Positions 9,843 through 30,645 of a stretch of 64,000 nucleotides of DNA are shown piece after piece. The stretch is from Candidatus Poribacteria bacterium (lineage in GTDB: Bacteria; Poribacteria; WGA-4E; WGA-3G), in the NCBI GenBank assembly GCA_022821965.1, contig JAJECN010000022.1:62001-126000 (forward strand), given 5' to 3'. Both the position numbers and the translations under genes were made by a program. A model generated the notes under the pieces. It made no database searches, had not been told where the DNA came from, and worked only from the letters and a program-made list of their open reading frames with translations. Numbering within the stretch: the first letter of the stretch is position 1; each line of letters starts with the position of its first letter.

Positions 9843-9960
9843 TATGGTGAAATCTATAATTATGTATACACCAAAAGAGGGCGAGGATACAATCCTCGCC
9901 AGCGGGGGTGGTAGGTCTCGCTCCTATTGAAATGTAAACTTATTTTCATAATTCACCATA
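9843..9960. repeat. MITE-like repeat, copy B (~118 bp)
   Basis: Same orientation and near identical to copies A and C; TATGGTGAA/TTCACCATA ends. Confidence 0.85.
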
Positions 9961-9989
9961 AATAGTCCTGGTCCAAAATATCTGAGTGC

Positions 9990-10017
9990 TTGACAAAAAA
10001 ATGGATTTCGCTAAAAT
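9990..10017 (+). promoter_or_regulatory. Putative promoter upstream of the DUF1080 gene
   Basis: TTGACA - 16 bp - TAAAAT. Confidence 0.5.
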
Positions 10018-10080
10018 AGTGCAGGATTGTAATTCTGATTATACCAATTTGCTCATGCTTAGCATAGGAAAGGAAAACTC

Positions 10081-10704: not shown

Positions 10705-10843
10705 AATGGTTGTCGGTTGTCGGTTGTCGGTTGCCAGTAAAGAGATTTATTGTGGCAGCAACAAACAATCTAACTACCACAAGAGATTAACTGATGGCTG
10801 ACGACTGACAACTGACGCCTGATAACTCATAGAGAGGAATTTT

Positions 10844-11794
10844 ATGGCAACCCATCAAGATCTACCTACAATTCCGAGACGACGACTGGGAAGGACGGAA
10901 TTGAGCATCCCTGTGGTTCCGTTCGGGACGCAGGGGTTCGGAAACAACTTTGGATTCGTTTCTGACGAAGAGGCTGTCGCACTCATCAAACACTCGGTAT
11001 CGATCGGTGTGAACCACTTCGATTGCGCACGCTGCTATGGGGATTCCGCGCGGAAACTCGGTTTAGCGATGAAGGAGATCCCGCGCGAGGATGTCATCAT
11101 TACGGGTCGGCTCTGCTGCCACTCTGCAGCAAAGTGGGGTGGCTATGGAGAGGGTAGACCGGATTACTCCGCCGAACGCGCAATCGCTGACCTCGAAGAC
11201 CAACTCCAACTTCTCAACATCGACTACTTCGACGGCATGCTCATCCACGACCCAGGCGAGATTGATCCAACGCTCGAAAAGGGTGGCACACTTGACGGTT
11301 TGCTCCAGTGTAAAGCGCGTGGACTCGTGAACTACCTTGGATATGGGATGCGTCAGCACGATTTCCACCTCAAGGCGATGGCAACAGGCGATGTAGATCT
11401 CATCCTCTGCTTCAACGACTATAACCTCATCCGGCAGACTGCCGCTGACGAGGTACTGCCCGCCGCTGCTGAAGCGGACATCGGTGTTATGAACGGCTGG
11501 TCAATCCTACGCGGTATCCTCACAGGCGTTGATATCGATGCTGAAATTGAACGTGGACGCTGGAAAAAAGAAGGTGATGTTGCGGCAGCATACCCAATTT
11601 GGGAATGGTGCGTTGAAGAAGGCATAAGTTTGCTTCAACTTGCACTCCAGTTCTGTCTGAAAGAAGATCGGATTCAAGGCAACAACATCGGGAGTCTCAA
11701 CGTTGAGCAACTCGAAGCAAACGTCCGAGCCGCCAGCACCCCGTTGCCTGATGAAGTCTGGGAAAAATACGAAGCATGCTTCGGGGATAATTAG
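10844..11794 (+). CDS. Aldo/keto reductase
   Basis: RRRLGRTELSIPVVPFGTQGFG; GVNHFDCARCYGDS; YFDGMLIHDP. Confidence 0.88.
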   Translation: MATHQDLPTIPRRRLGRTELSIPVVPFGTQGFGNNFGFVSDEEAVALIKHSVSIGVNHFDCARCYGDSARKLGLAMKEIPREDVIITGRLCCHSAAKWGGYGEGRPDYSAERAIADLEDQLQLLNIDYFDGMLIHDPGEIDPTLEKGGTLDGLLQCKARGLVNYLGYGMRQHDFHLKAMATGDVDLILCFNDYNLIRQTAADEVLPAAAEADIGVMNGWSILRGILTGVDIDAEIERGRWKKEGDVAAAYPIWEWCVEEGISLLQLALQFCLKEDRIQGNNIGSLNVEQLEANVRAASTPLPDEVWEKYEACFGDN

Positions 11795-11930
11795 CGGTTG
11801 ACTGTCGGAGACCATCAGTCGCCAGTTTTCCCAACAAAAGCAGGCGCGGTTTACAACCGCGCCGAACCTGTCACCGAACCCATTTACCGACAACTGATAA
11901 CTGAAAACTATTCCTCTGATAACTCTAACC

Positions 11931-13658
11931 ATGAAACAGCACCGCTTATTATGGGCATTTAAATTCCTTTTGCCCTACAAGTACCTCTATCTCTTCGGAA
12001 TTCTCTGTAGCCTCGCAATGGGAGCGGCGCAGCTCATAATCCCTTGGGTCCGAAAACTCATCATTGATGATGGACTTATTCAGCAAAACAACGAAGCCCT
12101 AATTACAGCGATCTTGATTTTTGGTGGTGTCGTGGTACTGTCTATCGCACTCACTTGGGGAATGAACTTAGCCTTTGCTTTCGTAACGGGTCGCTACGCC
12201 GCGGATATGCGCACAGGTATCTTCAAACATCTCCGCAGCCTTTCGGTATCCTACTTTCATGGTGAACGCACCGGACAGATTATATCAAGGCTAACTAATG
12301 ATGTACCGGTCATAAAAGACACTGTTACTTCCACCCTTACGCAGCTTGCAACCCAAATACTCAGCTTGACTTTGGCTTTCATTGTCGCCCTAAGAATCGA
12401 ACCTAAACTAACACTCATCATGCTGCCAGTCATCTGTGCAGCAGGTTTGCAGACACTGATTTTCGCGCCATTTAATCGGCGTGTCGGTCGTGCCCGCCAA
12501 GACTATGCCGCCGACGTTTTATCAGAGTTACATGAAGGTATCACAGGCTCTAAGGAAATACTGGCATTCGGTCGTTCAAATTGGCAGATCGCTCAATTTC
12601 GGGAGCTGTTTCTACGTTTGGTGGGTGTGGAGCGAAGACAGGCTGTTGTACAATCTGCTTCTTTCTCAGTAACATATCTTTTTATGTGGATACCGTCGCT
12701 CCTCCTATTTTTGCTGGGCGGCAGACTTGTGGTGCAGGGCGAGATGACTGTCGGTACTCTTTTTGCCTTCATCGGTTACGTTGAAGCGATGGCCTCCCCG
12801 ATCCGTTCATTCCAAGGAAGCATTGGTAGGATACAAACAGCGATGGGAGCCGTAGATCGGATTAATGAGTTCATGAATGTTCAACCGCAGGTATCGGAAC
12901 TACCCACAGCAAAACCGTTGCAGAATGTCGAAGGGACTCTCACAATGGAGAGCGTCTCTTTCGCATACGAACCTGAAAAACCGGTCGTTCAGGATATTAC
13001 CTTTACGATTCCGGCGCGTCAAAAAGTGGCGATCGTCGGCGCAAGCGGTGTCGGAAAAAGTACACTTGTAGACCTCCTACTCCGTTTTTACGACCCTCAA
13101 CAAGGGAAAATATACATTGACGGATTCGACATTCGCGAAGCGACACTCGACTCCCTCCGCTCCCAAATAGCGGTCGTCTTTCAAGACCCTTTCCTATTTG
13201 CTGGCACAGTCCGAGACAACATCCGATTCGGGAGACTTGATGCCAGCGATGAAGAAGTCGTCGCTGCGGCGAAAGCGGCTAACGCCGACCAATTTATTTC
13301 GCAGCTGCAGCATGGTTACGACACACCGATTGGCGAGCAAGGCGTTACGTTGTCGGGTGGCGAAAGACAGCGGATCGCCATTGCCCGCGCGGTTCTAAAG
13401 AACCCTAAAATTCTCCTGTTAGACGAAGCGACTTCAGCCCTCGACAATCGGACAGAACGAGAGATATGGGAAGCACTAGCGCATTTGATGGAAGGCAAAA
13501 CCGTCCTGATTATCGCGCATCGGCTTTCAACCGTCACTCAGGCGGACCAGATTATTGTGCTCGTAGATGGGAAAATCGCAGAAATCGGAAATCACGAAGA
13601 ATTACGCCGCGCCGAGGGACCCTATACAGATATTTTCGCGATGCAACGCGCAAGTTGA
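11931..13658 (+). CDS. ABC transporter, fused permease/ATP-binding protein (MsbA-like)
   Basis: N-terminal TM domain; VAIVGASGVGKSTLVDLLLRFYDP; LSGGERQRIAIARAVLKNPKILLLDEATSALD. Confidence 0.94.
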   Translation: MKQHRLLWAFKFLLPYKYLYLFGILCSLAMGAAQLIIPWVRKLIIDDGLIQQNNEALITAILIFGGVVVLSIALTWGMNLAFAFVTGRYAADMRTGIFKHLRSLSVSYFHGERTGQIISRLTNDVPVIKDTVTSTLTQLATQILSLTLAFIVALRIEPKLTLIMLPVICAAGLQTLIFAPFNRRVGRARQDYAADVLSELHEGITGSKEILAFGRSNWQIAQFRELFLRLVGVERRQAVVQSASFSVTYLFMWIPSLLLFLLGGRLVVQGEMTVGTLFAFIGYVEAMASPIRSFQGSIGRIQTAMGAVDRINEFMNVQPQVSELPTAKPLQNVEGTLTMESVSFAYEPEKPVVQDITFTIPARQKVAIVGASGVGKSTLVDLLLRFYDPQQGKIYIDGFDIREATLDSLRSQIAVVFQDPFLFAGTVRDNIRFGRLDASDEEVVAAAKAANADQFISQLQHGYDTPIGEQGVTLSGGERQRIAIARAVLKNPKILLLDEATSALDNRTEREIWEALAHLMEGKTVLIIAHRLSTVTQADQIIVLVDGKIAEIGNHEELRRAEGPYTDIFAMQRAS

Positions 13659-13829
13659 ATGGCTATCAGTCCTCAGTACTCAGTTATCAGTACGATTTTT
13701 CTGCGAAAAATCTTTCAGTGAGCAGTTGCCAGTTAAGGAAACCTGATGAACCAGACTCTCACTACGAGGCACTCTTAACTGGTAACTCGTAACTGGAAAC
13801 TGGTAACTATTCCCTCTGACAACTGACAA

Positions 13830-14906
13830 CTATAACTCATCCAAAAACTTATGCGTCACACGTGGGAGTGGATAATCTCGTAGTGCTGCAACCTCAATCC
13901 ACTTCGCGTCTCTCGGTCCATTCAGAACAACCTCGCCTGCTTGATAATCGCATTCAAACACATCTACGACGACCTTGAAATGGGTGTAGGCGTGCCTGAC
14001 ACGGGTGAGGTATCGCACGTTGGTGACAGAGAGGTTGACGACATCGGCAATATGACGAATGCAAGCGGTTTCGGCGGTTTCACCATCGGCGAGTTGCCCA
14101 CCGGGAAACTCCCAGAGTCCACCGAGTAGTCCATCCAGCTGCCGTTGCGTAATCAATACCTCACCTGCCCTATAGATAACCCCAACGGCGATGTGATGTT
14201 CAGGAACAGGTTTCGTCTCCCGTCGCTTCGGGAATTCGGCTTGGTACCCTGTGTGGAACGCCTCACAAAAGGAATTCACGGGACAGACAAGACAGACTGG
14301 CGATTGCGGGCGACACATCGTTGCCCCCAACTCCATCATCGCCTGATTGAAAAGTCCCGGCACGTTTTGATCCAAGAGTTCATCCGCTTTCGCCTGAAAC
14401 AACTTCGCTGACTTTGCGTCGTTAATCGGTGCGTCCATCAGAAACAGGCGCGCCAGCACGCGTTTGATGTTTCCATCCACAGCGGCATACGGCGCGTCAA
14501 AAGCGATGCTCTGCACCGCCGCTGCACTATAATCGCCGACACCGGGCAATTTCCGAAAGGTGGCATAGTCCTGTGGCACCTTCCCATCCAATTCGTTCAC
14601 AATAACCTGTGCTGCCTTGTGGAGATTCCGTGCCCTCGCATAATACCCCAAGCCTTCCCATACCTTCAGTACATCTTGTAGCGGCGCGACTGCCAAACGC
14701 TGCACATCTGGAAAACGTTCAATGAATCTCTCATAGTATCCGACGACCTTCTTGACCTGCGTCTGTTGGAGCATCACCTCGGAGATCCAAATGCGGTAGG
14801 GATCGTCTGTGTTCCGCCACGGCATGTCGCGCTGGTACTTCTTGAACCACGCTACGAGCGCGTCTCGGAAATCTTGGTAGTGTTCGGGTAAGGGTTTTTT
14901 GTGCAT
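13830..14906 (-). CDS. mutY: A/G-specific adenine glycosylase
   Basis: MPWRNTDDPYRIWISEVMLQQTQV; LPGVGDYSAAAV HhH motif; CRPQSPVCLVCPVNSFC 4Fe-4S loop; C-terminal NUDIX-like domain. Confidence 0.95.
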   Translation of the reverse strand: MHKKPLPEHYQDFRDALVAWFKKYQRDMPWRNTDDPYRIWISEVMLQQTQVKKVVGYYERFIERFPDVQRLAVAPLQDVLKVWEGLGYYARARNLHKAAQVIVNELDGKVPQDYATFRKLPGVGDYSAAAVQSIAFDAPYAAVDGNIKRVLARLFLMDAPINDAKSAKLFQAKADELLDQNVPGLFNQAMMELGATMCRPQSPVCLVCPVNSFCEAFHTGYQAEFPKRRETKPVPEHHIAVGVIYRAGEVLITQRQLDGLLGGLWEFPGGQLADGETAETACIRHIADVVNLSVTNVRYLTRVRHAYTHFKVVVDVFECDYQAGEVVLNGPRDAKWIEVAALRDYPLPRVTHKFLDEL

Positions 14907-15073
14907 ATTTATCTGAATCGCGGATTGTCGCGGATTTCACGGATTTCGCGGATTTTGGGTATTCTTGTTTTTAGATTTTTTGTCTGAAGCAGGATTTTCA
15001 GGATTCACGGATTTTCAGGATTAGAGCGGCTGTCGGATTGACACGTGATTTTTGGGCATTGATTGCCGATGGT

Positions 15074-15796
15074 TTATTCGTCATCCATGGCAATCCGGAA
15101 GCCGACGCTATGAATAGCCTGTATCGGTTCATACGCGGCACGGTTGGCACAGCGTGCGGCGAACTCACCTCGGGCAATCCATGAACCGCCACGAATCACC
15201 TTCCGGCGACCTTCGCTTGCGCCGATTGGATTCTCCGCAGGCGAGTATTTATATGTCTCCATGTGAAACCAATCGGAACACCAATCGTAGGCGTTGCCCG
15301 CCATATCGTAGCATCCGTAAGGACTCACACCGGACGGATAACTCCCGACAGGCATCAACCGCTTATTCCCCGATTCCGATGTGTTTGTCCTACTCGCATC
15401 CCATATATCTCCCCAAGGATACTCGCGAGCATCGGTGCCGCGTGCTGCTTTCTCCCACTCCGCCTCTGTCGGCAAGCGATATTCCGCGTTTTCAAGTGAA
15501 CCGAGCCACTCCAAAAAATGGGTCGCATCGTTCCAGCTCACACCAACGACTGGGAAATCGGGCGCGTTGAGATGTTCTTCTGTCCAGAACAGCGGTTGTG
15601 GATGTCCCGTCGCTTCTACAAATCGGGCGTACTGTGCGTTCGTGACCTGATACGTGCCGATGGCGTAAGCATCGAGTTGGACACTGCGTTGGGGTTCTTC
15701 TGGATCGGTTTTCCGCATTCCAGTCGGAATCGTTCCCATCGTGAACTCACCAGCGGGGATATGGATTAAAGGATAGTCAAATGTTTCGATGTGCAT
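15074..15796 (-). CDS. SUMF1/formylglycine-generating-enzyme-like protein
   Basis: IPAGEFTMGT; YQVTNAQYARFV; RLPTEAEWEKAARG; YPWG; VIRGGSW. Confidence 0.92.
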   Translation of the reverse strand: MHIETFDYPLIHIPAGEFTMGTIPTGMRKTDPEEPQRSVQLDAYAIGTYQVTNAQYARFVEATGHPQPLFWTEEHLNAPDFPVVGVSWNDATHFLEWLGSLENAEYRLPTEAEWEKAARGTDAREYPWGDIWDASRTNTSESGNKRLMPVGSYPSGVSPYGCYDMAGNAYDWCSDWFHMETYKYSPAENPIGASEGRRKVIRGGSWIARGEFAARCANRAAYEPIQAIHSVGFRIAMDDE

Positions 15797-16131
15797 GTAG
15801 GCGCGTTCGTCCTCTGATACAGCGTTACAATAACAGTGTTAGTATAGCACATCACTAACTTCTGTTTCAATTTCTTCTGTAGGCGCGAACTCCCGGTCGC
15901 GATACGCATTGACTTATGATTGGAAACTGAACACCTCTGAATAACTAACGAAATACCTTTGATTTTTTGGCTAACCTATGATACACTTTGAAATACGCCT
16001 TGTGTCCCATATATTGACGATAAAACAAGAATACACGATGAACTCCGTTCAGAGTATAATCTGAGAAACTTGCGAGTGCGAAAGTTCGGTTCTGCACGTA
16101 AACAGTTTGGTGATTTTGCCAAGAAGGTCCT

Positions 16132-17043
16132 GTGAGAATGACAAGAGAAGAAATTATTGAGAAATTTCAGAATTTGAATATATGGAAGAGCAAAGATCAA
16201 CGGGCAGTGCATAAGCCGTTATTAGTTCTATACGTAATTGGAAAATTGCTGCGTGGTGAAAATAGGCTCATTTCATACGCTGATGTAGAAGACGACCTTC
16301 GGAATTTGCTAAAAGAGTTTGGACCATTGAAACCAAATCACCGCCCTCAGTATCCATTTTGGCGGTTGCGAAATGAAAAAGATAGAATCTGGGAAATACC
16401 TGATGCCCACGGAATTCAGGAATACATACGAAAGGATGGAACTTCAACTGGTGATGCTCGTATAGCAGATTTAAGACGTTACGGTGTAGGTGGTTTTCCT
16501 GAACCTATAGCCTATCAACTTCGGCAACAGCCGCAAATCGCTTTTGAGGTTGTACAGAACCTATTAAATTCCCATTTTCCATTCTCGTATCATAGTGATA
16601 TTTTACAGACAGTCGGGATAGTGCTTCCGTTCCTACAGTTCCAATCTCGGATTCCAGACTTCCGAGAAAATGTCCTAAGAGCCTACAATTATAGCTGCGC
16701 TGTTTGTGGTTTTGATGTGAAGTTACGAAATCAGCCCGTTGCCTTGGAAGCTTCCCACATAAAATGGCACCAAGCAGGCGGCCCTGATACAGAAGTCAAT
16801 GGATTAGCACTCTGTTCCTTACATCATAAACTATTTGACCGTGGGGTTTTTACGTTGTCATCAAAGTTAAAAATCCTCGTTTCAGAATATGCTTATGGAT
16901 CTGTCGGTTTTGACGAATGGCTGATGAAATTTCATAATAAAGAGATTAATTTTCCGCAGAGGCGAGCGTACCATCCTCACGAAGATTTTATAGATTGGCA
17001 TCTCAGAGAAGTATTCAAATGGCCTGAGCGTGAAAAAATTTGA
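16132..17043 (+). CDS. Putative phosphorothioated-DNA-binding (SBD-like) HNH endonuclease
   Basis: N-terminus RAVHKPLLVLYVIGKLLRGENRLISYADVEDDLRNLLKEFGPLKPNHRPQYPFWRL resembles the sulfur-binding domain of ScoMcrA-type enzymes. C-terminal HNH: CAVCGF...EASHIKWHQAGGPDTEVNGLALCSLHHKLFD. GTG at 16132 or ATG at 16138. Confidence 0.82.
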   Translation: MRMTREEIIEKFQNLNIWKSKDQRAVHKPLLVLYVIGKLLRGENRLISYADVEDDLRNLLKEFGPLKPNHRPQYPFWRLRNEKDRIWEIPDAHGIQEYIRKDGTSTGDARIADLRRYGVGGFPEPIAYQLRQQPQIAFEVVQNLLNSHFPFSYHSDILQTVGIVLPFLQFQSRIPDFRENVLRAYNYSCAVCGFDVKLRNQPVALEASHIKWHQAGGPDTEVNGLALCSLHHKLFDRGVFTLSSKLKILVSEYAYGSVGFDEWLMKFHNKEINFPQRRAYHPHEDFIDWHLREVFKWPEREKI

Positions 17044-17069
17044 CATTTAAAACATAATTGTGTTAGAAT
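17040..17069 (+). promoter_or_regulatory. Putative distal promoter upstream of the sspB-like gene
   Basis: TTGACA - 18 bp - TAGAAT. Confidence 0.4.
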
Positions 17070-17301
17070 CTAAGTAAATATTGAATAAACTGGAATTCCT
17101 AATTTCAGTTTAAGATACAATACAACTAAATCTGATATTTTGATACCTAATCAGTAAACGTAATGAAAAATCGAGATATAAAAACTGCTGTCAATACACT
17201 ACATAGAACTGATGACAACTGCCCTGTCCGGCAATTCTTCGCGTCCTTTAGTCCCTTATGTCTATTGGGCTTGAATAACAAGCCGATTTACCCCCCCCCA
17301 C

Positions 17302-17330
17302 TTTACAAACGATAAGCGTTTTACTATACA
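17302..17330 (+). promoter_or_regulatory. Putative proximal promoter upstream of the sspB-like gene
   Basis: TTTACA - 17 bp - TATACA, immediately downstream of a C9 tract (17291-17299). Confidence 0.4.
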
Positions 17331-17492
17331 AAATATTTACGGCATCTGCCAATGCTCCGCGCCCGCGCGTCATCTTGCTCGATGGCATTCCATGTGGGTT
17401 GTTTTTATTGTCATATTTTCCGCTGTTACTCTCACTTTTTTCCCCCTATTGCTGTCTGCATCAGGAACTGTTCTATTTCGGGAGGACGAGAT

Positions 17493-18470
17493 TTGAGTAA
17501 CGCGTACACAATCCCTCTACAGACAATTACGCCATCTTTCTCGGGACACCAGACGTTTCCATTCCGATACACATGGTTAAAGAAGGGTGTTGAAGCCGTG
17601 ATAAAAGATCCGGCAGTCTTTTCATCCGAGAACGCCTCTGTTACGTTAGGGGTCGGAAAAAACATGGTGAGCTCCATCCGCCACTGGTGCCGCGTATCAA
17701 GGCTCATTGAAGAAGGGATAGGTCAACCTAAACAACCTCCCATGGGTCTCGGTGAGCAAGCAACGGTCTTTCGGCGTGGTCAATTCTCGCCAACTGACCT
17801 TGGCAGAGCCATCTTTGACGAAAACGGATTCGACCCATACCTCGATGATCCAGCCACTTTGTGGTTGATTCACTGGCAGATAGCAACCAATACCAATCAG
17901 GCGACTGCGTGGTATTGGGCATTTAACATTTTAAGAGGAAACCAATTCACACCGCCCATATTCGCACGAGAATTGTATAAATGGGCACAACAACAGAAAA
18001 AATCCATGCGGACTGTTTCTGAAAACACACTTCAACGGGATGTCAATTGCTTTATCCGTACTTACTGTCAGGCGCGCCACACCGAGGCCGTCGTTGAGGA
18101 GACGTTTGACTGTCCACTCGTTGAACTCAACCTAATCGCCGAATTACCAGATGGGAATGGATATGAATTCCAACGAGGCAGCAAAGAAACACTGCCAATT
18201 GAAGTCGTTGCGTGGACGTTAGATACTTTTTGGAAAAGCAACTCCCTTCAAAAAAAAACACAAACACTTTCGTTTTCGAATTTGATGTATGACCCATCAA
18301 GTCCCGGGCGGGTTTTCAGATTAGACGAAGACACGATGACGACGTATCTTGAAAATCTTGAGCAACTCACGGACGGTGCGTTGCGATACGATGAAACAAC
18401 AGGGGTAAAGCAGGTTTACCGACACAGAGATTTAAACCAGATGGAACTTTTAAAGAGGTACTATGAATAA
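17493..18470 (+). CDS. DUF4007 family protein (SspB-like)
   Basis: SFSGHQTFPFRYTWLKKGVEAVIKDPAVFSSENASVTLGVGKNMVSSIRHWCRVSRLI. TTG start at 17493 with GGAGG at 17481 preferred over the annotated M at 17352. Overlaps the next ORF by 8 nt. Confidence 0.82.
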   Translation: MSNAYTIPLQTITPSFSGHQTFPFRYTWLKKGVEAVIKDPAVFSSENASVTLGVGKNMVSSIRHWCRVSRLIEEGIGQPKQPPMGLGEQATVFRRGQFSPTDLGRAIFDENGFDPYLDDPATLWLIHWQIATNTNQATAWYWAFNILRGNQFTPPIFARELYKWAQQQKKSMRTVSENTLQRDVNCFIRTYCQARHTEAVVEETFDCPLVELNLIAELPDGNGYEFQRGSKETLPIEVVAWTLDTFWKSNSLQKKTQTLSFSNLMYDPSSPGRVFRLDEDTMTTYLENLEQLTDGALRYDETTGVKQVYRHRDLNQMELLKRYYE

Positions 18471-21400
18471 CGTCCCCTTATCAGATATTTTTCACATCAC
18501 AGAACGTTTTCAGCGTTCTGTACATCTGGAGCGCGATTTTTATACCGAAAACGCGTTAGATGGGTACGTTGTGACTGTCAAAGCGCGGGAAACCCTCACC
18601 CGTCTTATTTCAGCACAAGAGAATAGTGCAACCTCGAAAGCATGGTCCCTCACTGGTCCTTATGGATCAGGAAAATCAGCGTTCGCGCTCTTTGCTGCAA
18701 AACTACTCGGAGATACCAACACACCTACAACACAACAGGCTTTAAATCTATTGAGACGTGAAGACATCGCATTATACGAACGATTTATGCACATAAAGGG
18801 GAATGGAGATTACTCGCTATCCGGTTTTTGTCCGGTGCTTATTTCAGGAGAGCGCGCCCCGCTTCCAATCGCCCTTCTGCGTGCTTTAGAACAGGGTCTT
18901 AAGACCTTCGGAATCCCATCTTCCAGTTCACTGCGGCGGAACATCAAAAAATTACTGAAAACAGAGACAGTCTATAGAACGCCATCAGCATCTGAAATCA
19001 CGGCACTTTTTGAATCGGCGACGCGCGTGATTCGTAAAAACGGCGGCACCGGTCTGTTGTTAGTTATTGACGAACTCGGTAAGTTCCTTGAATATGCCGC
19101 GCAATCTCCAGCACAAGGCGATGTGTTTGTGCTACAAACCCTCGCTGAATTTGCCACACGCAGCGATCAGACCCCGCTATTTCTGTTGACAATTCTGCAT
19201 CAGGCTTTTGAACAATACGCACACCGAGTCGCAAAATCACAGCGCGAGGAGTGGGCAAAGGTACAAGGACGGTTTGAAGATATTGCCTTCGTGGAACCCT
19301 CTGAACAGGTACTCCGCCTGATTGGATCCGCTATCAAAAGGACTTCAAAAGGTAAGGAAAGCAATTTATCACTGCCCATTGAATTCAATCTCAAACCGAC
19401 GCAACTTGCCGACGAAAGCTTTAGCGAACTCCTAAGAAACTGTCTACCGCTCCACCCGACCGTAGCACTTGTTATCGGTTCAATTTTCCGACGGTTCGCA
19501 CAGAATGAACGTTCTCTTTTCGCTTTCCTGAGTTCAAATGAACCTTATGGACTACAAGACTTTCTTTCAAACCGGCACTATGATAGTGGTGTGCTGCCGA
19601 TGTTTTCGGTCGCCGATCTGTACGATTATCTCAACACCACTATAGGGAATCGACTATCTGCCGCACGCGACGGTGATAAGTGGGTAGAAATTGAGATGGC
19701 TATTAATCGGTTGGCAGATCCATCACCGACCACAGTGAGACTCATTAAGACTATCGGATTACTCAGTATCGTCGGAGAAGTAAGCACTAACCTGAAAGCC
19801 TCAAAACATATACTCCGTTATGCCTTAGACGATCACACCGAAGAATTCGCGAAGGAATTTGAGACAGCACTAAAGACGTTAGAAAGACGTTCAATTGTTA
19901 CTTATCGTCGCTACAACGATGTTTACGCACTGTGGGAAGGGAGCGACATTGATATCGAAGCGATGTCTCACGAAGCGGAAGGACACCTCGATCCAAATGA
20001 GACACTTACGAATTACCTTTCAAAACTCACACCGCCGCGACCTCTTATTGCCCGCCGGCACCTGTTTGAGAAAGGCACACTTCGCTATTTTGACGTTCGG
20101 TACACCGATCTTGAAAATTTTGATGCGAACCTGAATAAATCCTGTAGTGAAGCAGACGGACTTGTGCTTTATGTACTTCCAGCAAGTGAAGATGAAGTCA
20201 GTCAGTTCATCGAAAAAGCAAGTGGAAAAGACGTTACAGAACGCCAAAATGTGTTAATTGCAATCCCACACTCCACCCGTTTTCTCCGCGATGCTGTCAC
20301 TGAACTCGCCTGTCTGCACTGGATTTCGGAAAATACGGCCGAACTTGAGGGCGATGCGGTTGCGAGACGTGAACTTTCAATCCGGTGGGTAGAAGCGGAG
20401 CGAAATGTATCCGATCAGTTAGCAGTCGTTTTTGGCAGCGACAGCGAGGAGTCTTGCAAATGGTTTCACAAGGGACAACGGGTAGGTATCAACTCTCAAC
20501 GTGCGAGAAATGAACACTTGTCAAAAATCTGTGATGAGGTTTACCACAAAACCCCTTTTATTCGGAATGAACTGATCAATCGGCGGAAAATCTCTGGTGC
20601 TGTAACGACTGCCCGAAAAAAATTAATTCAAGCGATGCTTGAAAACGGTGATCAGGAAAACCTCGGTATTACTGGTTATCCTGCTGAAATGAGCATCTAC
20701 CGCTCACTCTTATCGGATACAGGAATCCATCGTGAAGTTTCCGGTATGTGGGGATTCCACCCACCAAAAACGGACGATAAAAACGAAATAAAACACACAT
20801 GGAACGCAATTGAGGCTTTTCTTGAAGCGTGTGAAGGTGAGCGACAACCTGTCGTGAAACTCTATGAACGTTTGATGGCACCACCGCTTGGGGTGCGAAG
20901 CGGTCCTCTGCCTATTCTTTTGTGCGCGATGATGCACCATTACAAAACAGAAATCGCGCTTTATGAAAACGGATCCTTTATAGCAGATTGGTCAATGCCG
21001 GTTTTTGAAAGACTTCTGAAAGCACCGCAACAATTTGAACTGAAACGTTTTCAGATGACAGGAATCCGCTCCGATCTATTTTCACAATTTTCAAGGGCGT
21101 TCAATCAATCAACAGAAACCCAAAAACCAGATCTGCTGACGGTCGTCACGCCGCTTATGCGTGCTATTGCGCAACTTCCGAAGTATACTTTGGTAACACA
21201 AGAATTGAGTGACAATGCGAAAAATTTTCGTAAAACCGTCTTGAATGCGCGTGAGCCTGACGAACTCCTCTTTACACAACTGCCGGCAGCATTTGGATTT
21301 CCTGTTTTTAGTACGCAGATAACAACAGATTCACAAGCAGTTTCGGAATTTTTTAGTGCACTGCAAAGCGCATTGTCGGAATTAGAAAAGGTTTATGACC

Positions 21401-21951
21401 GCCTACTGAATTCGGTTGAACTTCTGTTGATCGAAGCATTCACCTTGACACCAACTGCGGAGAAACTCCGTGCTGAACTGGTGGCAAGAGCCGAACCTTT
21501 GTTATCGGTGACAATTGAAATTGATCTCAAAGGATTTTTAGTCCAAGTCTGTAGTGGTGGACACGATCACACGGGTTGGCTTGAGGCAATCGCGACCTAC
21601 CTCGCCAAAAAACCACCCTCAGCATGGGTAGATGCCGATAAAGCCCAGTTTGAGATTAACCTTTCTCAGATCGCGAGGAAGTTTCGGCACTTTGAAGCGG
21701 TGTCCTATGAAAAACTGGCGCGCACTGAATCATCAACAGGCGAGCCGATCCGAGTGGGTATCACCGCCCCGAATCGAACAGAACAGGAACGGGTTGTTAC
21801 CTTGACACCGACTGCTGATGAGCAAACCGCTGAAATGGAAGATGAGATTAGGAAAGTATTCTACAAGTTTGACGTAGACGATAATCCAGAACTCCATATC
21901 GCAATTTTGGCGCGAATTTCACAAAAATGGATGCAACAACTTGATGAATAG
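18463..21951 (+). CDS. Large P-loop ATPase (SspC-like)
   Basis: Walker A GPYGSGKSAFALFAAKLLG; Walker B GLLLVIDELGKFLEYA; 1162 aa, between the DUF4007 and PAPS-reductase-like genes. Confidence 0.72.
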   Translation: MNNVPLSDIFHITERFQRSVHLERDFYTENALDGYVVTVKARETLTRLISAQENSATSKAWSLTGPYGSGKSAFALFAAKLLGDTNTPTTQQALNLLRREDIALYERFMHIKGNGDYSLSGFCPVLISGERAPLPIALLRALEQGLKTFGIPSSSSLRRNIKKLLKTETVYRTPSASEITALFESATRVIRKNGGTGLLLVIDELGKFLEYAAQSPAQGDVFVLQTLAEFATRSDQTPLFLLTILHQAFEQYAHRVAKSQREEWAKVQGRFEDIAFVEPSEQVLRLIGSAIKRTSKGKESNLSLPIEFNLKPTQLADESFSELLRNCLPLHPTVALVIGSIFRRFAQNERSLFAFLSSNEPYGLQDFLSNRHYDSGVLPMFSVADLYDYLNTTIGNRLSAARDGDKWVEIEMAINRLADPSPTTVRLIKTIGLLSIVGEVSTNLKASKHILRYALDDHTEEFAKEFETALKTLERRSIVTYRRYNDVYALWEGSDIDIEAMSHEAEGHLDPNETLTNYLSKLTPPRPLIARRHLFEKGTLRYFDVRYTDLENFDANLNKSCSEADGLVLYVLPASEDEVSQFIEKASGKDVTERQNVLIAIPHSTRFLRDAVTELACLHWISENTAELEGDAVARRELSIRWVEAERNVSDQLAVVFGSDSEESCKWFHKGQRVGINSQRARNEHLSKICDEVYHKTPFIRNELINRRKISGAVTTARKKLIQAMLENGDQENLGITGYPAEMSIYRSLLSDTGIHREVSGMWGFHPPKTDDKNEIKHTWNAIEAFLEACEGERQPVVKLYERLMAPPLGVRSGPLPILLCAMMHHYKTEIALYENGSFIADWSMPVFERLLKAPQQFELKRFQMTGIRSDLFSQFSRAFNQSTETQKPDLLTVVTPLMRAIAQLPKYTLVTQELSDNAKNFRKTVLNAREPDELLFTQLPAAFGFPVFSTQITTDSQAVSEFFSALQSALSELEKVYDRLLNSVELLLIEAFTLTPTAEKLRAELVARAEPLLSVTIEIDLKGFLVQVCSGGHDHTGWLEAIATYLAKKPPSAWVDADKAQFEINLSQIARKFRHFEAVSYEKLARTESSTGEPIRVGITAPNRTEQERVVTLTPTADEQTAEMEDEIRKVFYKFDVDDNPELHIAILARISQKWMQQLDE

Positions 21952-21963: not shown

Positions 21964-22800
21964 ATGGAACAAAAAATCCGCCACGTCCTTGGACTCTCCG
22001 GTGGTAAAGATAGTTCTGCACTCGCTGTTTATATGCGGGATAGAGTACCGGAGATGGAATACTTTTTTTCTGATACAGGCAAAGAATTGCAGGAGACTTA
22101 CGATTTTTTAGATCGGTTAGAGGCGTTTCTCGGCAAACCGATTGTACGCCTCAACATGAACGCCGATGCCAACAGTAACCGAGATTTCGATCATTGGCTG
22201 ACAGTCTACGGTGGTTTGCTGCCGTCATCGCAAATTCGCTGGTGCACCGTTAACCTCAAAATAAGACCTTTTGAGGAATACATCGGTGAGGATAACGCGT
22301 ATCACTATATTGCTATCCGTGCCGACGAAGATCGTATCGGTTACAAGCCTCCGAGTATCTCCTCTCTCCATAATATTGAACCCAAATACCCATTCAAAGA
22401 GGACGGCATTACGAAAGAGGACGTGTACCGAATATTGGAGGAAAGTGGACTCGGTTTGCCCGATTATTATAAGTGGCGGACGCGTTCCGGTTGCTATTTC
22501 TGCTTCTTCCAGCGTAAATCCGAGTGGGTTGGACTGTTAGAGCAACACCCAGACCTTTTTGAACTCGCCAAGGGTTATGAGAAATTCAATCCAGAGACAG
22601 GCGAACGGTTCACGTGGTGTCAGGGCGAAAGTTTGGAGGAACTATCACAACCAGATCGGATCGCGGAGATCAAGGCAAATACTGAAAAGGCGATGGCATC
22701 TAAGAAAGCGGCAAAACCGAATCGTCGTTTGATAGAGATTCTCACTGATGTTCTTGATGATGAGGACGACGAGGAGCCATGTCTGCCTTGCCATAAGTGA
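21964..22800 (+). CDS. PAPS reductase/ATP pyrophosphatase family protein (SspD/DndC-like)
   Basis: PP-loop HVLGLSGGKDSSALAVYM; CYFCF and terminal CLPC cysteine pairs; 278 aa. Confidence 0.82.
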   Translation: MEQKIRHVLGLSGGKDSSALAVYMRDRVPEMEYFFSDTGKELQETYDFLDRLEAFLGKPIVRLNMNADANSNRDFDHWLTVYGGLLPSSQIRWCTVNLKIRPFEEYIGEDNAYHYIAIRADEDRIGYKPPSISSLHNIEPKYPFKEDGITKEDVYRILEESGLGLPDYYKWRTRSGCYFCFFQRKSEWVGLLEQHPDLFELAKGYEKFNPETGERFTWCQGESLEELSQPDRIAEIKANTEKAMASKKAAKPNRRLIEILTDVLDDEDDEEPCLPCHK

Positions 22801-22842
22801 CAGAAATAAACCCATTATGTTTGAAAGGGAACAGATAATAGA

Positions 22843-24966
22843 ATGAGACTTCGGACAATACCTGATATTCAACCGCTCTATATATTGCCAAAGGACCCTG
22901 TGACGAAAGATGTCCTGATTCCGTGCTTTCAGTCTGCGACCTCTGTTGATTGCATGATGGGTTTCTTTTCAAGTGAAATTCTGGTATCACTCGCGCCAGG
23001 TTTGGCAAGTTTTATAGACTGCTCGGACGAAAGTTTACGTCTTATTATCAGTCCACTTCTGAGAACCGAAGATAGGGAAGCAATCGAACTGGGTACGACC
23101 TCCGTTGAAGATATCGCTCGTGAGTCTTTAGAGGATTTTATTGTTACAGAAAACGCCATTGCACAACATACACTAAAGTGTCTCTCGTGGATGCTACGTC
23201 ACGGACGCGTGGAAATCAAAATTGCTTTGATGAAAGATGCTCTTTTCCACCCGAAAGTCTGGCTCTTTCGCGAAGGCAATGACGTAATAGCAGCACACGG
23301 ATCCAGTAATATGACGTACGCCGGTATTGAAAAAAATATTGAGCAAGTGTCTATATCCAAATCGTGGGAGGATACCAATCAGTCCTATATAACAGAAAAG
23401 TTTTGCGATCAGTTTAGGCAACTTTGGACAAATTACGATGAGACTTGTACTGTCATACCGATACCACGAGCGATTGAGGAAAATCTGTTGAAAACTTATA
23501 ATTCAGATATCCCACCAACCGAGGCAGAATTGCACACACTCTACGAAGAGCAAACTGGTTCTATAGATGAATCTTCGGCATCCTATAACTATGATAAGCT
23601 ATCTCGCCCTCCATTTGCCATACCCTCATACCTGCGGTATGAGGACGGTCCTTTTGAACATCAAGGTAAGGCAATTAAAGCGTGGTGTGAAGCTGGTTAT
23701 CATGGCATTTTAGAAATGGCGACTGGTTCTGGGAAGACAATTACCGCCATGATTTGCGCCCATAGGCTTTATAATGTAGAAAAACCACTCCTTATTGTCG
23801 TGGCTGCGCCTTATATTCCTCTTATTCAACAGTGGTGTGATGAGATTTTATCCTTTAGACTCAAGGCAGTTAACCTAACCGAAGCGAACGGAGCAAAGGG
23901 ACGTGCCCTTGAACTTAACAAGCTCAAACGAAGACTCCGAAACGGCAGCAGTGACGTTGAAGTAGTTGTAGTTACGCACCGCACACTTTGTAATAGTGGT
24001 TTTAAAACTGAACTTGAGAAATATGACTGTAAAACTTTGCTTATCGCGGATGAAGTACACAATCTCGGAAGTGAGGGATTCATAACCGATCCGCCCGATT
24101 TCTTTGATTACAGATTGGGACTATCAGCAACCCCTATCCGCCAGTATGATGAAGTGGGAACAGAGCAGCTATTTTCGTTTTTTGGTCCTATTGTTTTCCA
24201 GTTCACCCTTGAGGAAGCGATCGGGCGATGTCTCGTTGAGTACGAATACTACGTCCATCCGGTAGAACTTACAGAGGATGAAATGGAGAAATGGTACGAG
24301 CTCACGGAAAGGATCGGGAAAAATGCGTGGCGACAGGAAGAAGATCCAAACGATGAGTACCTTATGAAGCTGCTCCGGGATAGACGTGCTCTCTTGGAAA
24401 ATGCTGAAAATAAGATCGCTGTGTTAGAAAATGTTTTGACACAACGCGAAGACTTCGACAGACTCTGCCATACGTTGATTTACACGTCTGACAAGGCACC
24501 GCAGCAGCTGAAAGATGTTAACGCCTTACTGAACAAACACGGTGTTCTCTTCCACCAACTCACACATGAAGAGACACCCGACCGGAAAAAAACCGCCCAA
24601 ATTATCCAGTCTTTTCAGGAAGGAACATTACGCATTTTAACTGCCAAACGCGTTCTTGATGAAGGGATCAATATTCCACAGATTGAAAAGGCTTTTATTC
24701 TTGCGAGTACCACAGTGGAACGTCAATGGGTGCAACGTCGTGGACGGTTGCTCCGCACTTGTAGCAAGACAGGCAAAACACACAGTGAAATCCACGACTT
24801 CATGGCTTTACCGCCGGATTTGGATAATCTGGACACTCGCGCTCGCGCCTTAATAGAGTCCGAACTCAAACGGATCCAAGCATTCGCTTACCTTGCGAAA
24901 AACTTTGGCAGACCTGATGGTCCTTTGAGTCACATCGACCAACTTGTTAAAGCCCTTTACACATAA
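22843..24966 (+). CDS. PLD-type nuclease / SF2 DEAD-DEAH helicase fusion (dnd/ssp restriction-module-like)
   Basis: HPKVWLFREGNDVIAAHGSSNMTYAG (PLD HxK); EMATGSGKTITAMICAHRL (Walker A); LLIADEVHNLGSEG (DEVH); LSATP; QRRGRLLR. Confidence 0.85.
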   Translation: MRLRTIPDIQPLYILPKDPVTKDVLIPCFQSATSVDCMMGFFSSEILVSLAPGLASFIDCSDESLRLIISPLLRTEDREAIELGTTSVEDIARESLEDFIVTENAIAQHTLKCLSWMLRHGRVEIKIALMKDALFHPKVWLFREGNDVIAAHGSSNMTYAGIEKNIEQVSISKSWEDTNQSYITEKFCDQFRQLWTNYDETCTVIPIPRAIEENLLKTYNSDIPPTEAELHTLYEEQTGSIDESSASYNYDKLSRPPFAIPSYLRYEDGPFEHQGKAIKAWCEAGYHGILEMATGSGKTITAMICAHRLYNVEKPLLIVVAAPYIPLIQQWCDEILSFRLKAVNLTEANGAKGRALELNKLKRRLRNGSSDVEVVVVTHRTLCNSGFKTELEKYDCKTLLIADEVHNLGSEGFITDPPDFFDYRLGLSATPIRQYDEVGTEQLFSFFGPIVFQFTLEEAIGRCLVEYEYYVHPVELTEDEMEKWYELTERIGKNAWRQEEDPNDEYLMKLLRDRRALLENAENKIAVLENVLTQREDFDRLCHTLIYTSDKAPQQLKDVNALLNKHGVLFHQLTHEETPDRKKTAQIIQSFQEGTLRILTAKRVLDEGINIPQIEKAFILASTTVERQWVQRRGRLLRTCSKTGKTHSEIHDFMALPPDLDNLDTRARALIESELKRIQAFAYLAKNFGRPDGPLSHIDQLVKALYT

Positions 24967-24977: not shown

Positions 24978-25223
24978 ATGTCGTATAACAAGCAAAAAAT
25001 GGTGGAACTGATCCTCAATGAATCTGAATCTATTGAGGAGAGATGCGATGGTTACAGGAAAAAAATTCTTGACGCAATCATTGAAATCCTTAACGCGGAA
25101 AGAGATCATAAAGCGCAAAGGACAAGTATCCAAAAACAAGTAAATCAAGCATGCCATAAGGCTGGTGACTTTCTCGCGAGGAAACACGATATAGATAATC
25201 CAACGACAGAGGTTATCCAATGA
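24978..25223 (+). CDS. Small conserved-position protein of unknown function (81 aa)
   Basis: RBS GGAGG; 4 nt ATGA overlap with the SMC-like gene. Confidence 0.65.
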   Translation: MSYNKQKMVELILNESESIEERCDGYRKKILDAIIEILNAERDHKAQRTSIQKQVNQACHKAGDFLARKHDIDNPTTEVIQ

Positions 25224-27337
25224 AACTAATCAGTGCAAAATTTCAGAACTTTCGTCTGCTACGAGATTTAAGATTGGATTTTTCGACAAGTAACGATAAA
25301 AAACTAACCGTCATTCGCGCCTCAAACGAGAGCGGAAAAACGACTATCTTAACAGCACTTCAGTGGGCACTCTACGGCGACAACGCCCTGCCTAACAGAG
25401 GTAGGGGACATCGCCTATTTCCAATTGATTGGGATGTCCCTGATGGACGGGCAATTCCGATATCTGTGCAAGTCGATTTTGAAAAACCTGCATCAGAGTT
25501 AAATCGGAATCAGACGAGCCGCTACTGTCTCATTCGTTCCGTAGAGGAGACAACCGAGGGGCTCAGACAAAACTCAAAAGTAGAATTGTTTGAACTGACA
25601 GAAACCGGGAGTGCTCCGATTCCTCCACCACTAGAAGCACAGATATCCCGACTCCTGTTACCTCTTCATTTGCGTGAGGTGTTTTTCACCGACGGCGACC
25701 GAGCACTGAGTTTCATCGAATCAGAAAACAATAATACACAGGTTAAAAATGCTATTCAATCGTTGTTAGGTCTTGACGTGATTGAGTCTGCACTCGATCA
25801 CTTGAAAAAGACGCTCGCTGGACTCAATAGAGATTCAAAGAATATCGGATCCGATACAGAAATCACCGCAATCGTTACAGAATTAGAGGAGATAGATCAA
25901 AAGATTGAACGTCTTGAAAATGAAAGAGACGATGCGAAACTCCAATTTGATGCAGTCAATCAAAGTCTAACAGAAATTGATAAAGACCTTGAAGTAGCAT
26001 TGGTTAATGGGGATCAAGAAGAACTTAATCGTGAACTGCAAAAAGCAGAGGCAGAACTAAAGAGAATCAGAAATCAAGAAGAAAAACTGGTTTCCGAGCA
26101 TTCACAACTCTTTAGAAAACCGCCTCTGTTCCGTGATTTGCTTGCCCCGGTTTTGAAAAAAAGTTTTGAGAAATTGGATAAACTCCGCGATCAAGGGAAA
26201 CTGCCGAGAACAACAATTCCGGTGCTTGCCGAACGGTTAACAGATGTTACCTGCATCTGTGGCGAATCGCTGGATCGACACTCAGAAGACGGGAAGCGTC
26301 GCAGAGCACATATTGAACAACTGATTAGTGAGAGTCAGAAATCTGATGAATTCCAAAAATGTCTCACCGACCTCTATTACGGTTCATTGGCACTGAAACC
26401 GATAGAGACCAACGATGCGCAACACTGGATCGCTGAGTACAAGAGAAACGCAATCCGTCGAGATGAACTTGAAACGCGACGCGGGGAATTAGAGAAAGCC
26501 TTAGCAGCACTTGAAGTCCAACTTGAAAACATAGGAGACATTGACATTCAAGAACTTCGTGCCGCCAAACAAGACTATATCGCTCAACGCGATTCTTTGA
26601 ACCACATCCGTATAGAGCACGAAAGAGAACTTGAACGTCTGAAGGAAAGGCAGAGGTCCTTAAGCGCAACGCGTAATAACCTTATCAGTAAACGGAGGAG
26701 AGGGAAAGGAATATTAGCCAGATTAGACACCACACGCGACATAGATCAAATTCTTAAAAATTCCTACAACCGAATCACAAACGAGGAATTGCAAAAAGTG
26801 AGTCGGTTGATGAACACTCTCTTTTTAGAGATGATTGGTGCGGATGCCGAACAGAACGCAATCATTCATAAAGCGGAAATCAGTGACAAGTTTGATATTC
26901 TCGTCTACGGACCCAATGAACGTGCTTTGAATCCTGATCGAGATTTAAACGGTGCCTCTCGGCGAGCATTAACGATAGCGTTTATTCTCGCTCTGACTAA
27001 GGTAAGTGAAGTTGCAGCACCAAATGTGATTGACACACCCCTTGGAATGATGGACGGGTTCGTCAAACGTTCCGTTCTCAAAACTGCTATTCAAGAAAGT
27101 TCACAACTCATTCTCTTTTTAACGCGTTCTGAAATTAAAGACTGTGAGGATATTATATCAGATAAGGCGGGACGTATAATCACCATCACTAATTCAGCAC
27201 ACTATCCCAATATATTGGTGAACGATCCACATATAAACGAACCTCAGGCACTCCGATGTCCGTGCCAGGGCCTCGGAGAATGCGATATGTGTAAGCGGCG
27301 AACGGACGCTGAGGTGGAAGTCCAACCGGCACCTTAG
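25220..27337 (+). CDS. DndD/SMC-like ATPase
   Basis: MKLISAKFQNFRLLRDLRLDFS...VIRASNESGKTTILTALQWALYG; long coiled coil with central TCICGE; C-terminal ABC signature-like region LNGASRRALTIAFILAL and PNVIDTPLGMMDG. Confidence 0.85.
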   Translation: MKLISAKFQNFRLLRDLRLDFSTSNDKKLTVIRASNESGKTTILTALQWALYGDNALPNRGRGHRLFPIDWDVPDGRAIPISVQVDFEKPASELNRNQTSRYCLIRSVEETTEGLRQNSKVELFELTETGSAPIPPPLEAQISRLLLPLHLREVFFTDGDRALSFIESENNNTQVKNAIQSLLGLDVIESALDHLKKTLAGLNRDSKNIGSDTEITAIVTELEEIDQKIERLENERDDAKLQFDAVNQSLTEIDKDLEVALVNGDQEELNRELQKAEAELKRIRNQEEKLVSEHSQLFRKPPLFRDLLAPVLKKSFEKLDKLRDQGKLPRTTIPVLAERLTDVTCICGESLDRHSEDGKRRRAHIEQLISESQKSDEFQKCLTDLYYGSLALKPIETNDAQHWIAEYKRNAIRRDELETRRGELEKALAALEVQLENIGDIDIQELRAAKQDYIAQRDSLNHIRIEHERELERLKERQRSLSATRNNLISKRRRGKGILARLDTTRDIDQILKNSYNRITNEELQKVSRLMNTLFLEMIGADAEQNAIIHKAEISDKFDILVYGPNERALNPDRDLNGASRRALTIAFILALTKVSEVAAPNVIDTPLGMMDGFVKRSVLKTAIQESSQLILFLTRSEIKDCEDIISDKAGRIITITNSAHYPNILVNDPHINEPQALRCPCQGLGECDMCKRRTDAEVEVQPAP

Positions 27338-27346: not shown

Positions 27347-27850
27347 ATGGCACCACAATACGACAACCCTTTCCGCAACATGACGATTATTTCACCCAGG
27401 ACGCAGCAAGAAAACTACGATCACTACTGCCAAACAGGACAGGGCGCGAAAGCCGATAACACTCCGTTTCCACGGAAGGTGGATCTTTGGTTTGCGGGCC
27501 TCTCACTGGCAGTGCGGAAGAATCTTAAACCGATGGATTTAAAGAAAGAGGAAACCGTTAGTATCATTAACGGTGATATTTTTAACACTGATGGTTGGCA
27601 GGCACAAGCGATAATGCTGATAGCGATAGCAGTTGAGGGAAACTTAGAGGCTGTCCTAAATCCACGTCGTATGATGGATATTGCCAACGGTTTAGCGGCT
27701 GCCGGTGTCAATGACATCATAAAAATGCTAAGCGAAGGACCTGAAAAAGCGATATGGAATCTGTCTGAAGCCTTTGAAGGCGTATTGCAATCTGATACTG
27801 GTACAGGGGAACAATCGGACCAGGATCGACTCGCTGAAGCCCTGCTATGA
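27347..27850 (+). CDS. Unknown protein, possibly Dnd-system-associated small protein (167 aa)
   Basis: Operonic position; segment PFPRKVDLWFAGLSLAVRKNL...AQAIMLIAIAVEGNLEAVLNPRRMMDIANGLAAAGVNDIIKML is reminiscent of dnd-associated protein 4-type proteins (unverified). Confidence 0.55.
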   Translation: MAPQYDNPFRNMTIISPRTQQENYDHYCQTGQGAKADNTPFPRKVDLWFAGLSLAVRKNLKPMDLKKEETVSIINGDIFNTDGWQAQAIMLIAIAVEGNLEAVLNPRRMMDIANGLAAAGVNDIIKMLSEGPEKAIWNLSEAFEGVLQSDTGTGEQSDQDRLAEALL

Positions 27851-29565: not shown

Positions 29566-30645
29566 ATGAGTAATAAAATTGGCGAAATTGCCGGAGTCGT
29601 TCAGAAAACTCAAGCGAATCAGAAGTACTTATTTGGGACAATTCCCTCTGACAAGGTTAAAAACGTGACCTTTGTTCCAGTAAACGAATCCAGTTCCCGT
29701 AAGACCCCTCTTAATGAACAGACAGAAGAGGGTTACCAACGCCCTGGCTCGTTGTCACGTATGAGAGCCTTCGCTAGGTTCCTCAAAGATCATCCTAACA
29801 GCATTATACCACCAATCCTCCTCTCTGGACGCGGCAATTGGCATTTCAAACCAAATGGGGAAAGACAAGAGGTAGGAAAACTTATCATTCAAGAGAAAGC
29901 CGCCATTCTTGATGGTCAACACCGTCTTGGCGGCTTTGTGCACTTATATGAATCTGAAGATGATGTACGTGAAATCTCCTTCATTCTTCTTCCTGATCTG
30001 GATCCTGAAGAAGAAAAGAAGGAATTTCTCGTCGTTAACAATACGCAAAAAGGTGTCCCTAAATCGTTAACTATATACCTGGAGGATACGGAAGAAGCAC
30101 AAGTTGCGTGGGGGCTCAATGAAGAGGCAGACAGTCCTTTTAATGGGAAAATTACAAAAACGACATTACAACGCTCACAACTTTTTAATCTTGCCAGCGT
30201 AGCAAAACAAGTTAAACGCTTGTTTGCTATTGGCGGCGTTCAAGACTTAGATGTTGGACAGAAGATTGATTTTATGTCCCGGTTTTGGACAATAATTGCT
30301 GACCATCTTCATGAAGAATGGACAGATATTGAAAAACTTGATGATCCTGAAATAAAAGGCAGTCGCAGAAACTCTTTTGAGTACAAACTCCTTGAGCTCA
30401 CCGGACTTATAGCTTGGGCACACACTGGTGCCCACATTTTTTCCCGTAGTTACAGCGAGGAAACGGGTATGAATTGGGATAATGTCAGCCGCCTAGTAGA
30501 AGCAGCATCTGAAATAAATTGGCGTAAAAATGGTGACTACGCAGGTATGACTGGTGAGTATGGCGGCAAAATTATGGCAGACGATATGATTCGTTTATTA
30601 CCACCCGAAAGTGCTGAAACAGGTTTACATCAGGCTCTGAGTTGA
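29566..30645 (+). CDS. DGQHR-domain protein (DndB-like)
   Basis: Signature IIQEKAAILDGQHRLGGF; QRPGSLSRMRAFARFLKDHPNSIIPPILLS; FLVVNNTQKGVPKSL. Confidence 0.85.
   Translation: MSNKIGEIAGVVQKTQANQKYLFGTIPSDKVKNVTFVPVNESSSRKTPLNEQTEEGYQRPGSLSRMRAFARFLKDHPNSIIPPILLSGRGNWHFKPNGERQEVGKLIIQEKAAILDGQHRLGGFVHLYESEDDVREISFILLPDLDPEEEKKEFLVVNNTQKGVPKSLTIYLEDTEEAQVAWGLNEEADSPFNGKITKTTLQRSQLFNLASVAKQVKRLFAIGGVQDLDVGQKIDFMSRFWTIIADHLHEEWTDIEKLDDPEIKGSRRNSFEYKLLELTGLIAWAHTGAHIFSRSYSEETGMNWDNVSRLVEAASEINWRKNGDYAGMTGEYGGKIMADDMIRLLPPESAETGLHQALS

Follow-up and report, generated by a model that had tools for sequence, protein, structure and literature searches.

An SBD-HNH nuclease gene linked to SspBCD writer genes in Candidatus Poribacteria: loci with a lost writer and loci with a poly-C leader

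The SBD-HNH gene and its neighbours in the window

The window, which is the whole stretch of 64,000 nucleotides analysed here, belongs to a 5.7 Mb Candidatus Poribacteria genome. It contains an SBD-HNH nuclease gene 449 bp ahead of the sspB start on the same strand, followed by sspB, sspC, and sspD, which are all intact and form one operon encoding the SspBCD writer of phosphorothioate (PT) marks (Table 1). The SBD-HNH open reading frame was confirmed at 16132-17043 and encodes a protein of 301-303 amino acids; the ATG at 16138 is the more probable start than the possible GTG at 16132, because AGAAGG is located 10 nt upstream of it and the homologues start at the same place. The listed open reading frame of sspB begins at 17352, and its likely start is the TTG at 17493. 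The SspD of the window retains the SGGKDSS loop and the cysteines. The gene order after sspD fits the original description of PbeABCD, in which PbeB has 66 amino acids (PMC6459918), and the 167-aa ORF at the PbeD position had no family match in Pfam, PADLOC, or NCBIfam searches. The sequence-only reading, which had placed an SBD-HNH gene directly beside PT-modification genes, was therefore correct on this point.

Table 1. Features of the SBD-HNH/Ssp locus, in window positions.
Feature	Position	Strand	Basis or remark
c12 small-ORF-family remnant	15992..16135	+	Frame reading and relatives; ends 2 nt before the SBD-HNH ATG
SBD-HNH nuclease gene	16138..17043	+	NF045808, HNH_2, SBD fold match, dN/dS 0.06-0.16
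Promoter-like TTGACA-18-TAGAAT	17040..17069	+	11/12, extended TG; -35 box overlaps the SBD-HNH stop codon
Leader ORF of 50 codons in the assembled sequence, "OFF" (not in frame)	17163..17315	+	Conserved MKN...NTA start
Run of 9 C (poly-C tract) within the leader ORF	17291..17299	+	All 12 type B loci have it, at lengths of 8-17 C
sspB (DUF4007)	17493..18470	+	PADLOC SspB 6e-98, DUF4007 1e-89, start alignment
sspC (ORC/BrxC-type ATPase)	18463..21951	+	PADLOC SspC 1126 bits, E=0
sspD (PAPS-reductase-like sulfurtransferase)	21964..22800	+	PADLOC SspD 1e-114
PbeA-like PLD + SF2 helicase	22843..24966	+	PADLOC PbeA 4e-200
Small ORF, 81 aa, PbeB position	24978..25223	+	Position and size only
PbeC/DndD-like ABC ATPase	25220..27337	+	PADLOC PbeC 2e-54, DndD 1e-37
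167-aa ORF, PbeD position	27347..27850	+	Position and size only
DGQHR/DndB-like protein	29566..30645	+	TIGR03187 1e-36, PF14072

The window protein matched NF045808 ("phosphorothioated DNA-binding restriction endonuclease") with 317 bits over residues 7-296, its full length, the curated cut-off being 180 bits, and Pfam gave HNH_2 only; the DUF262 (GmrSD_N) NTPase domain with DGQQR of the SspE/DndI type was absent. SBD structures were matched by sequence with E-values of 6e-9 for SprMcrA and 5e-6 for ScoMcrA. The AlphaFold2 model, built with 50 homologues, had a pLDDT of 90.8 and a pTM of 0.83, and the best PDB matches by Foldseek were 7ccd, 7cc9, 7ccj, and 5zmo (9e-8 to 7e-7), which are SBDs of SprMcrA and ScoMcrA in complex with PT-DNA. 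The TM score against 5zmo was 0.78 by target length, at 2.8 A.

The sulfur pocket of the SBD is represented by RAVHKPLL and YPFWRL, and H116, R117, Y164, and P165 of ScoMcrA correspond to H27, K28, Y74, and P75 of the window protein. No variation was found at H27, K28, and P75 across 102 homologues. The position of ScoMcrA A168 is occupied by Arg in the window protein and in nearly all homologues compared. The catalytic HNH motif is also intact, with H209, N223, and H231/H232 accompanied by C189, C192, and C228; these residues are invariant or nearly so, and H209, N223, and H231 do not vary among the 102 homologues. The identification made from the sequence alone was thus upheld by the model and by the pocket comparison with the ScoMcrA SBD that had been proposed with it, and its counter-possibilities, a disrupted pocket or an HNH enzyme unrelated to PT, found no support. 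In such a protein, the N-terminal sulfur-binding winged-helix domain would grip a PT in its sequence context and the C-terminal HNH domain would cut near it.

The dN/dS of the whole protein among close relatives was 0.06-0.16 in every gene context, which indicates purifying selection. Since the pocket and HNH residues are intact and dN/dS is low, the SBD-HNH protein of the window is, as judged from its sequence, a maintained enzyme and not a relic. A passive hitchhiker, namely a weak enzyme with residual or no activity and no Ssp function, has been proposed for certain dnd-linked homologues and would resemble one of them, Bsp48385I, for which low residual activity was reported (Lutz et al., PMC7461809), but the intact residues, the low dN/dS, and the repeated replacement of alleles at the same slot make this the least probable of the readings considered here.

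Recurrence of the linkage and loss of the writer after sspD

An NF045808 gene above the cut-off was found in 32 of 85 Poribacteria genomes, which are mostly MAGs, with some contexts hidden by contig ends. Most of these genes are Ssp-linked, in two layouts. In type A, the distance from the end of sspD to the SBD-HNH start ranges from a 4-nt overlap to a gap of 42 nt, and in type B, the layout of the window, the SBD-HNH gene precedes sspB. The linkage is rare outside Poribacteria: among more than 70 close homologues from other phyla, SspB/SspC occurred within 10 kb only in L006 and L007, SspD was present in one of 50 non-Poribacteria genomes with close SBD-HNH homologues, and in Chloroflexota none of 27 SspD loci had an SBD-HNH gene within about 1.5 kb. 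In L006, a Chloroflexota MAG, the SBD-HNH gene is divergent beside sspA-sspB-sspC, and there is no poly-C tract. The survey of HNH genes near sspB that the sequence-only reading had advised showed that co-residence recurs across Poribacteria, and the idea that it calls for an explanation was supported.

The conserved chromosomal site that holds the locus in the window (8030-15796 and 31470-37350) extends from a MutY/sulfatase-modifying-like pair to PhyH-like/ankyrin genes, and the same site (window; L148, L152, L154) is occupied by type A or by type B, depending on the genome. In several type B loci, a member of the c12 family immediately precedes SBD-HNH, the window keeping only a remnant. 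A longer c12 form (L154:16892-17549) stands beside a BrnT toxin gene (BrnT 4e-28), and the c12 ORF itself had no match in the Pfam search.

A second SBD-HNH-like subfamily, with NF045808 scores of 120-148 bits (below the cut-off) and often in tandem pairs, was located about 1-6 kb from DndC genes in at least 11 Poribacteria genomes. Examples are G000:C8:32054-32971 (L082) and L240:3975-4931, the latter beside DndC and DndD above the cut-off.

None of the 13 type A loci retained both SspB and SspC intact. Nine type A genomes contained neither protein genome-wide (only a fragment in G020 and G031), G082 was without SspB, and G013 was without SspC, whereas SspBCD without a linked SBD-HNH gene was intact with few exceptions. 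In G081, SspB carries two in-frame TGA codons, and in G034, SspB is a 49-codon remnant and SspC is broken. On the SspD tree, the association of type A with writer loss held in all of seven independent contrasts (p about 0.016). In the clade of G081, G082, and G084, the SBD-HNH gene follows sspD in all three genomes and the writer is at three different stages of loss; this single shared position combined with staged loss suggests that the nuclease arrived first and that the writer was lost later. Complete DndC, DndD, and DndE, all above the curated cut-offs, were kept in two type A genomes, G084 and G020, so that any incompatibility between nuclease and writer looks specific to Ssp.

No pocket difference separates the proteins of the two layouts: at the Y164 position, Tyr was found in 7 of 11 type B and 3 of 13 type A proteins, which is unconvincing as a separator. 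A degenerate nuclease in type B was ruled out by the intact residues and dN/dS.

These losses bear on the proposal that the protein is a PT-sensing co-effector like SspE or DndI, to which the host PT would serve as a licence and which would damage unmarked invaders together with SspBCD. The slot that it occupies in type A carries GmrSD/HNH, PbeA, or GIY-YIG nucleases at other loci, and all 12 type B loci link it to an intact SspBCD. Such an effector should need the writer, yet no type A locus retains one; it lacks the NTPase and DUF262 domains of SspE and DndI (PMC11662687); and stand-alone SBD-HNH copies exist in genomes without any SspC (G028, G019, G042, G048). The reading of the gene as analogous to SspE, which had been among the first suggestions, is accordingly unlikely.

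In other loci, the slot after sspD contained PbeA, GIY-YIG, HATPase proteins, a type ISP enzyme, or GmrSD-family proteins, some of them with HNH and some without. This slot (window 21964-30645; L179-L207) is a swap site for effector modules, including PbeABCD-like, GmrSD/HNH with DndB-like, GIY-YIG with DndB-like, HATPase, type ISP, and SBD-HNH modules. In L183 (G045:C118), sspD is followed by a Pbe-like module and no sspB/sspC is present in cis, and G045 has other sspBC copies.

SspD followed a different course from its former partners. Type A SspD pairs showed dN/dS of 0.03-0.08, indicating strong purifying selection, and 0-4 of about 150 conserved sites were changed, the same as in complete systems, which rules out SspD decay as a general feature of type A; decay was seen in G079, G040, and one G021 locus. 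Across L143-L172, the selection persists even in genomes without SspB and SspC. An incompatibility model does not predict this continued constraint. It could be accounted for if SspD and SBD-HNH formed a two-gene unit of their own, with SspD as a partner, a brake, or a sulfur inserter at HNH nicks. The spacing of the two genes, from a 4-nt overlap to 42 nt, the intact SspD in most type A loci, and the genome-wide absence of SspB/SspC in 9 of 13 agree with this, but independent recent losses of SspB/SspC would give the same signal, SspD has decayed in the three cases above, and stand-alone nucleases exist. We consider such a unit quite improbable.

An intact writer behind a poly-C leader

SspB, SspC, and SspD were all intact in the 12 type B loci. 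Between the nuclease gene and sspB, these loci share a leader ORF with the MKN...NTA start that contains a run of C and is followed, after about 130-200 nt, by the TTG of sspB. In 7 of the 11 type B loci with a complete SBD-HNH gene, the stop codon of that gene is overlapped by the -35 box of a promoter-like TTGACA...TAAAAT, whose second element reads TAGAAT in the window. The poly-C leader was present in 12/12 type B loci vs 0/25 other sspB loci (24 without a linked SBD-HNH gene and one of type A); type B SspD represents at most two lineages, so that the 12 correspond to fewer than 12 independent events and the leader and the nuclease could simply be co-inherited. The tract is not a common feature of these sequences, as only 12 C/G runs of at least 8 were counted in the 1.09 Mb of fetched loci, 11 of which were the leader tract. 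The poly-C leader ORF (17163-17500), a candidate phase switch for a PT writer, occurred only in loci with an upstream SBD-HNH gene.

The tract has the properties of a contingency locus, being a homopolymer of variable length (8-17 C, as read from assemblies) at a conserved site within a reading frame. Beyond the tract, each of the 12 type B loci has one or more frames without a stop as far as the sspB start. At that start, TTGAGTAAC has stops in both other frames, and any frame left is closed after no more than about 9 codons. As assembled, the leader is in the open frame in 3 of 12 loci (L162, L158, L171) and out of frame in 9; the window is one of the latter, and the gain or loss of 1 or 2 C there would let the leader ORF reach the sspB start. 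The proportion of 3/12 fits a free-running switch and is also compatible with no coding role. In shuffles, an open frame after the tract arose by chance at 20-70% per locus. Because the open-frame evidence is thus weak for each locus, the pN/pS of 0.44 ahead of the tract and the share of leader indels in multiples of 3 (65%, from non-independent pairs) are counted as support only. An RNA attenuator was also considered for the leader and rejected, since the window leader folds like its shuffles (z -0.02). No report on point was found in a literature search for phase variation, phosphorothioation, and homopolymers.

At the genome level, by counts taken by hand, an intact Ssp writer without poly-C was present in 1 of 32 nuclease-bearing genomes vs 22 of 53 nuclease-free ones (p 9e-5). 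The sole exception was G071, which has a second, divergent SspBCD without poly-C (L204); in G050, both genes end at contig edges and are therefore not assignable. One of the early suggestions for co-residence, that cleavage is regulated, gained evidence here, because a poly-C leader precedes sspB at every Poribacteria SBD-HNH gene beside an intact SspBCD, the switching itself being a conjecture from this arrangement.

The mark that is read and the coexistence of reader and writer

SBD-HNH alleles have been exchanged before near-constant writers. Between L154 and L163, SspC is 96% identical and SBD-HNH 62%, and between L156 and L158, SBD-HNH is 89% identical and SspC 71%. From these comparisons, the slot keeps an SBD-HNH gene, not the same one.

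CpsCA, the motif known for Ssp, is not bound by the SBD of either ScoMcrA or SprMcrA (PMC7470945). The loop TGDA of the window protein aligns with the base-reading HGD loop of SprMcrA; the window protein carries the common G-D, as do 10 of 11 type B proteins. Both points favour a Gps context. It is possible, though doubtful, that the nuclease is a guard against foreign PT, which would read a context other than the one SspBCD writes (e.g. Gps-R) and would never see the host mark. In that case, it would act as a type IV barrier to the DNA of Dnd-type hosts, the linkage would reflect clustering in defence islands, and the poly-C tract would be unrelated. The failure to bind CpsCA, the shared G-D, and the free swapping of alleles (L154/L163), expected if the nuclease need not match its local writer, all speak for such a guard. 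It leaves unexplained, however, the loss of SspB/SspC whenever SBD-HNH sits after sspD and the association of 12/12 vs 0/25 with poly-C, and a Dnd-reading nuclease would face self-attack in G084 and G020, which keep complete DndCDE. As these two genomes have lost the Ssp writer, their nucleases appear to tolerate Dnd and not a constitutive Ssp. The early suggestion of a different motif specificity consequently stands as far as CpsCA binding and the G-D are concerned and is weakened by the repeated SspB/SspC loss in type A loci, of which two genomes retain DndCDE in full.

The explanation that we tentatively favour, short of holding it probable, is that a PT-dependent nuclease reads the Ssp-type mark and coexists only with a writer that is dead or apparently phase-variable. 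The SBD-HNH subfamily of Poribacteria would conflict with an always-on Ssp writer, and it would persist at loci that no longer have SspB/SspC (type A) or that keep sspBCD behind its own promoter and an ORF split by poly-C (type B). Slippage of the tract in the cell would move the leader ORF into or out of a frame ending on the sspB start, and this change would couple or uncouple translation of the writer, so placing sspBCD under control of the switch. OFF cells would then be able to use the nuclease on PT-marked DNA, for example that of phages grown on ON cells.

A further reading, somewhat unlikely as it stands, is a bistable PT defence, in which a PT-reading nuclease upstream of a phase-variable PT writer divides the population into ON and OFF cells. 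ON cells would be PT-marked and their Pbe- or GmrSD-type effectors would act on unmarked phage, while OFF cells would be unmarked and SBD-HNH would destroy PT-marked DNA, including that of phage from ON siblings. The same locus family without the switch would have lost its writer.

A resident PT writer is considered incompatible with an SBD-HNH enzyme, and the survival of exceptions is an open question (PMC7461809, PMC10853773); a known restriction partner is absent at most sspBCD loci (PMC8092258). One phylum here offers a natural experiment, in which a single nuclease family and a single kind of writer occur in loci with a lost writer vs loci with poly-C, sometimes at the same chromosomal site. 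The old puzzle of self-attack by a PT nuclease beside a PT writer thereby becomes testable. If the switch is real, this PT system would be phase-variable and accompanied by a reader of its own. The nuclease family is already known; the arrangement and the putative switch were not found in the literature searched, nor was a paper pairing SspBCD with type IV restriction.

Among known systems, the NF045808 enzymes EcoWI and SprMcrA and the SBD-SRA-HNH enzyme ScoMcrA share with the window protein the SBD and HNH domains, the pocket (H, K/R, P; Tyr in the window), and the fold. The window protein differs from ScoMcrA in lacking SRA and in the Arg at the A168 position. The class is reported to be rarely linked to PT writers, with less than 3.6% linkage to dnd (Lutz et al., PMC7461809), whereas the Poribacterial members are mostly Ssp-linked. 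In SspABCD-SspE and IscS-DndBCDE-DndI, an HNH nuclease gene adjoins the PT writer as in the window, but SspE and DndI are PT-sensing DUF262-HNH NTPases, and the window protein carries an SBD in place of any NTPase domain. What the window shares with DndCDEA-PbeABCD is the PbeABCD-like module that follows its writer; neither this published module nor SspBCD-SspFGH includes an SBD-HNH gene. The wHTH(SBD)-SAD-HNH proteins of Dnd loci (Rakesh et al. 2024, PMC10853773) pose the same puzzle of a PT-reading nuclease near PT writers; they have three domains and reside in Dnd loci, whereas the proteins described here have two domains and reside in Ssp loci where either the writer has been lost or a poly-C leader is present. 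In phase-variable restriction-modification systems (phasevarions, PMC12707154), a homopolymer is likewise placed to switch a DNA-modification gene. The known phasevarions are methyltransferases, whereas the gene set concerned here is a PT writer and the tract is located in an upstream ORF instead of the writer gene.
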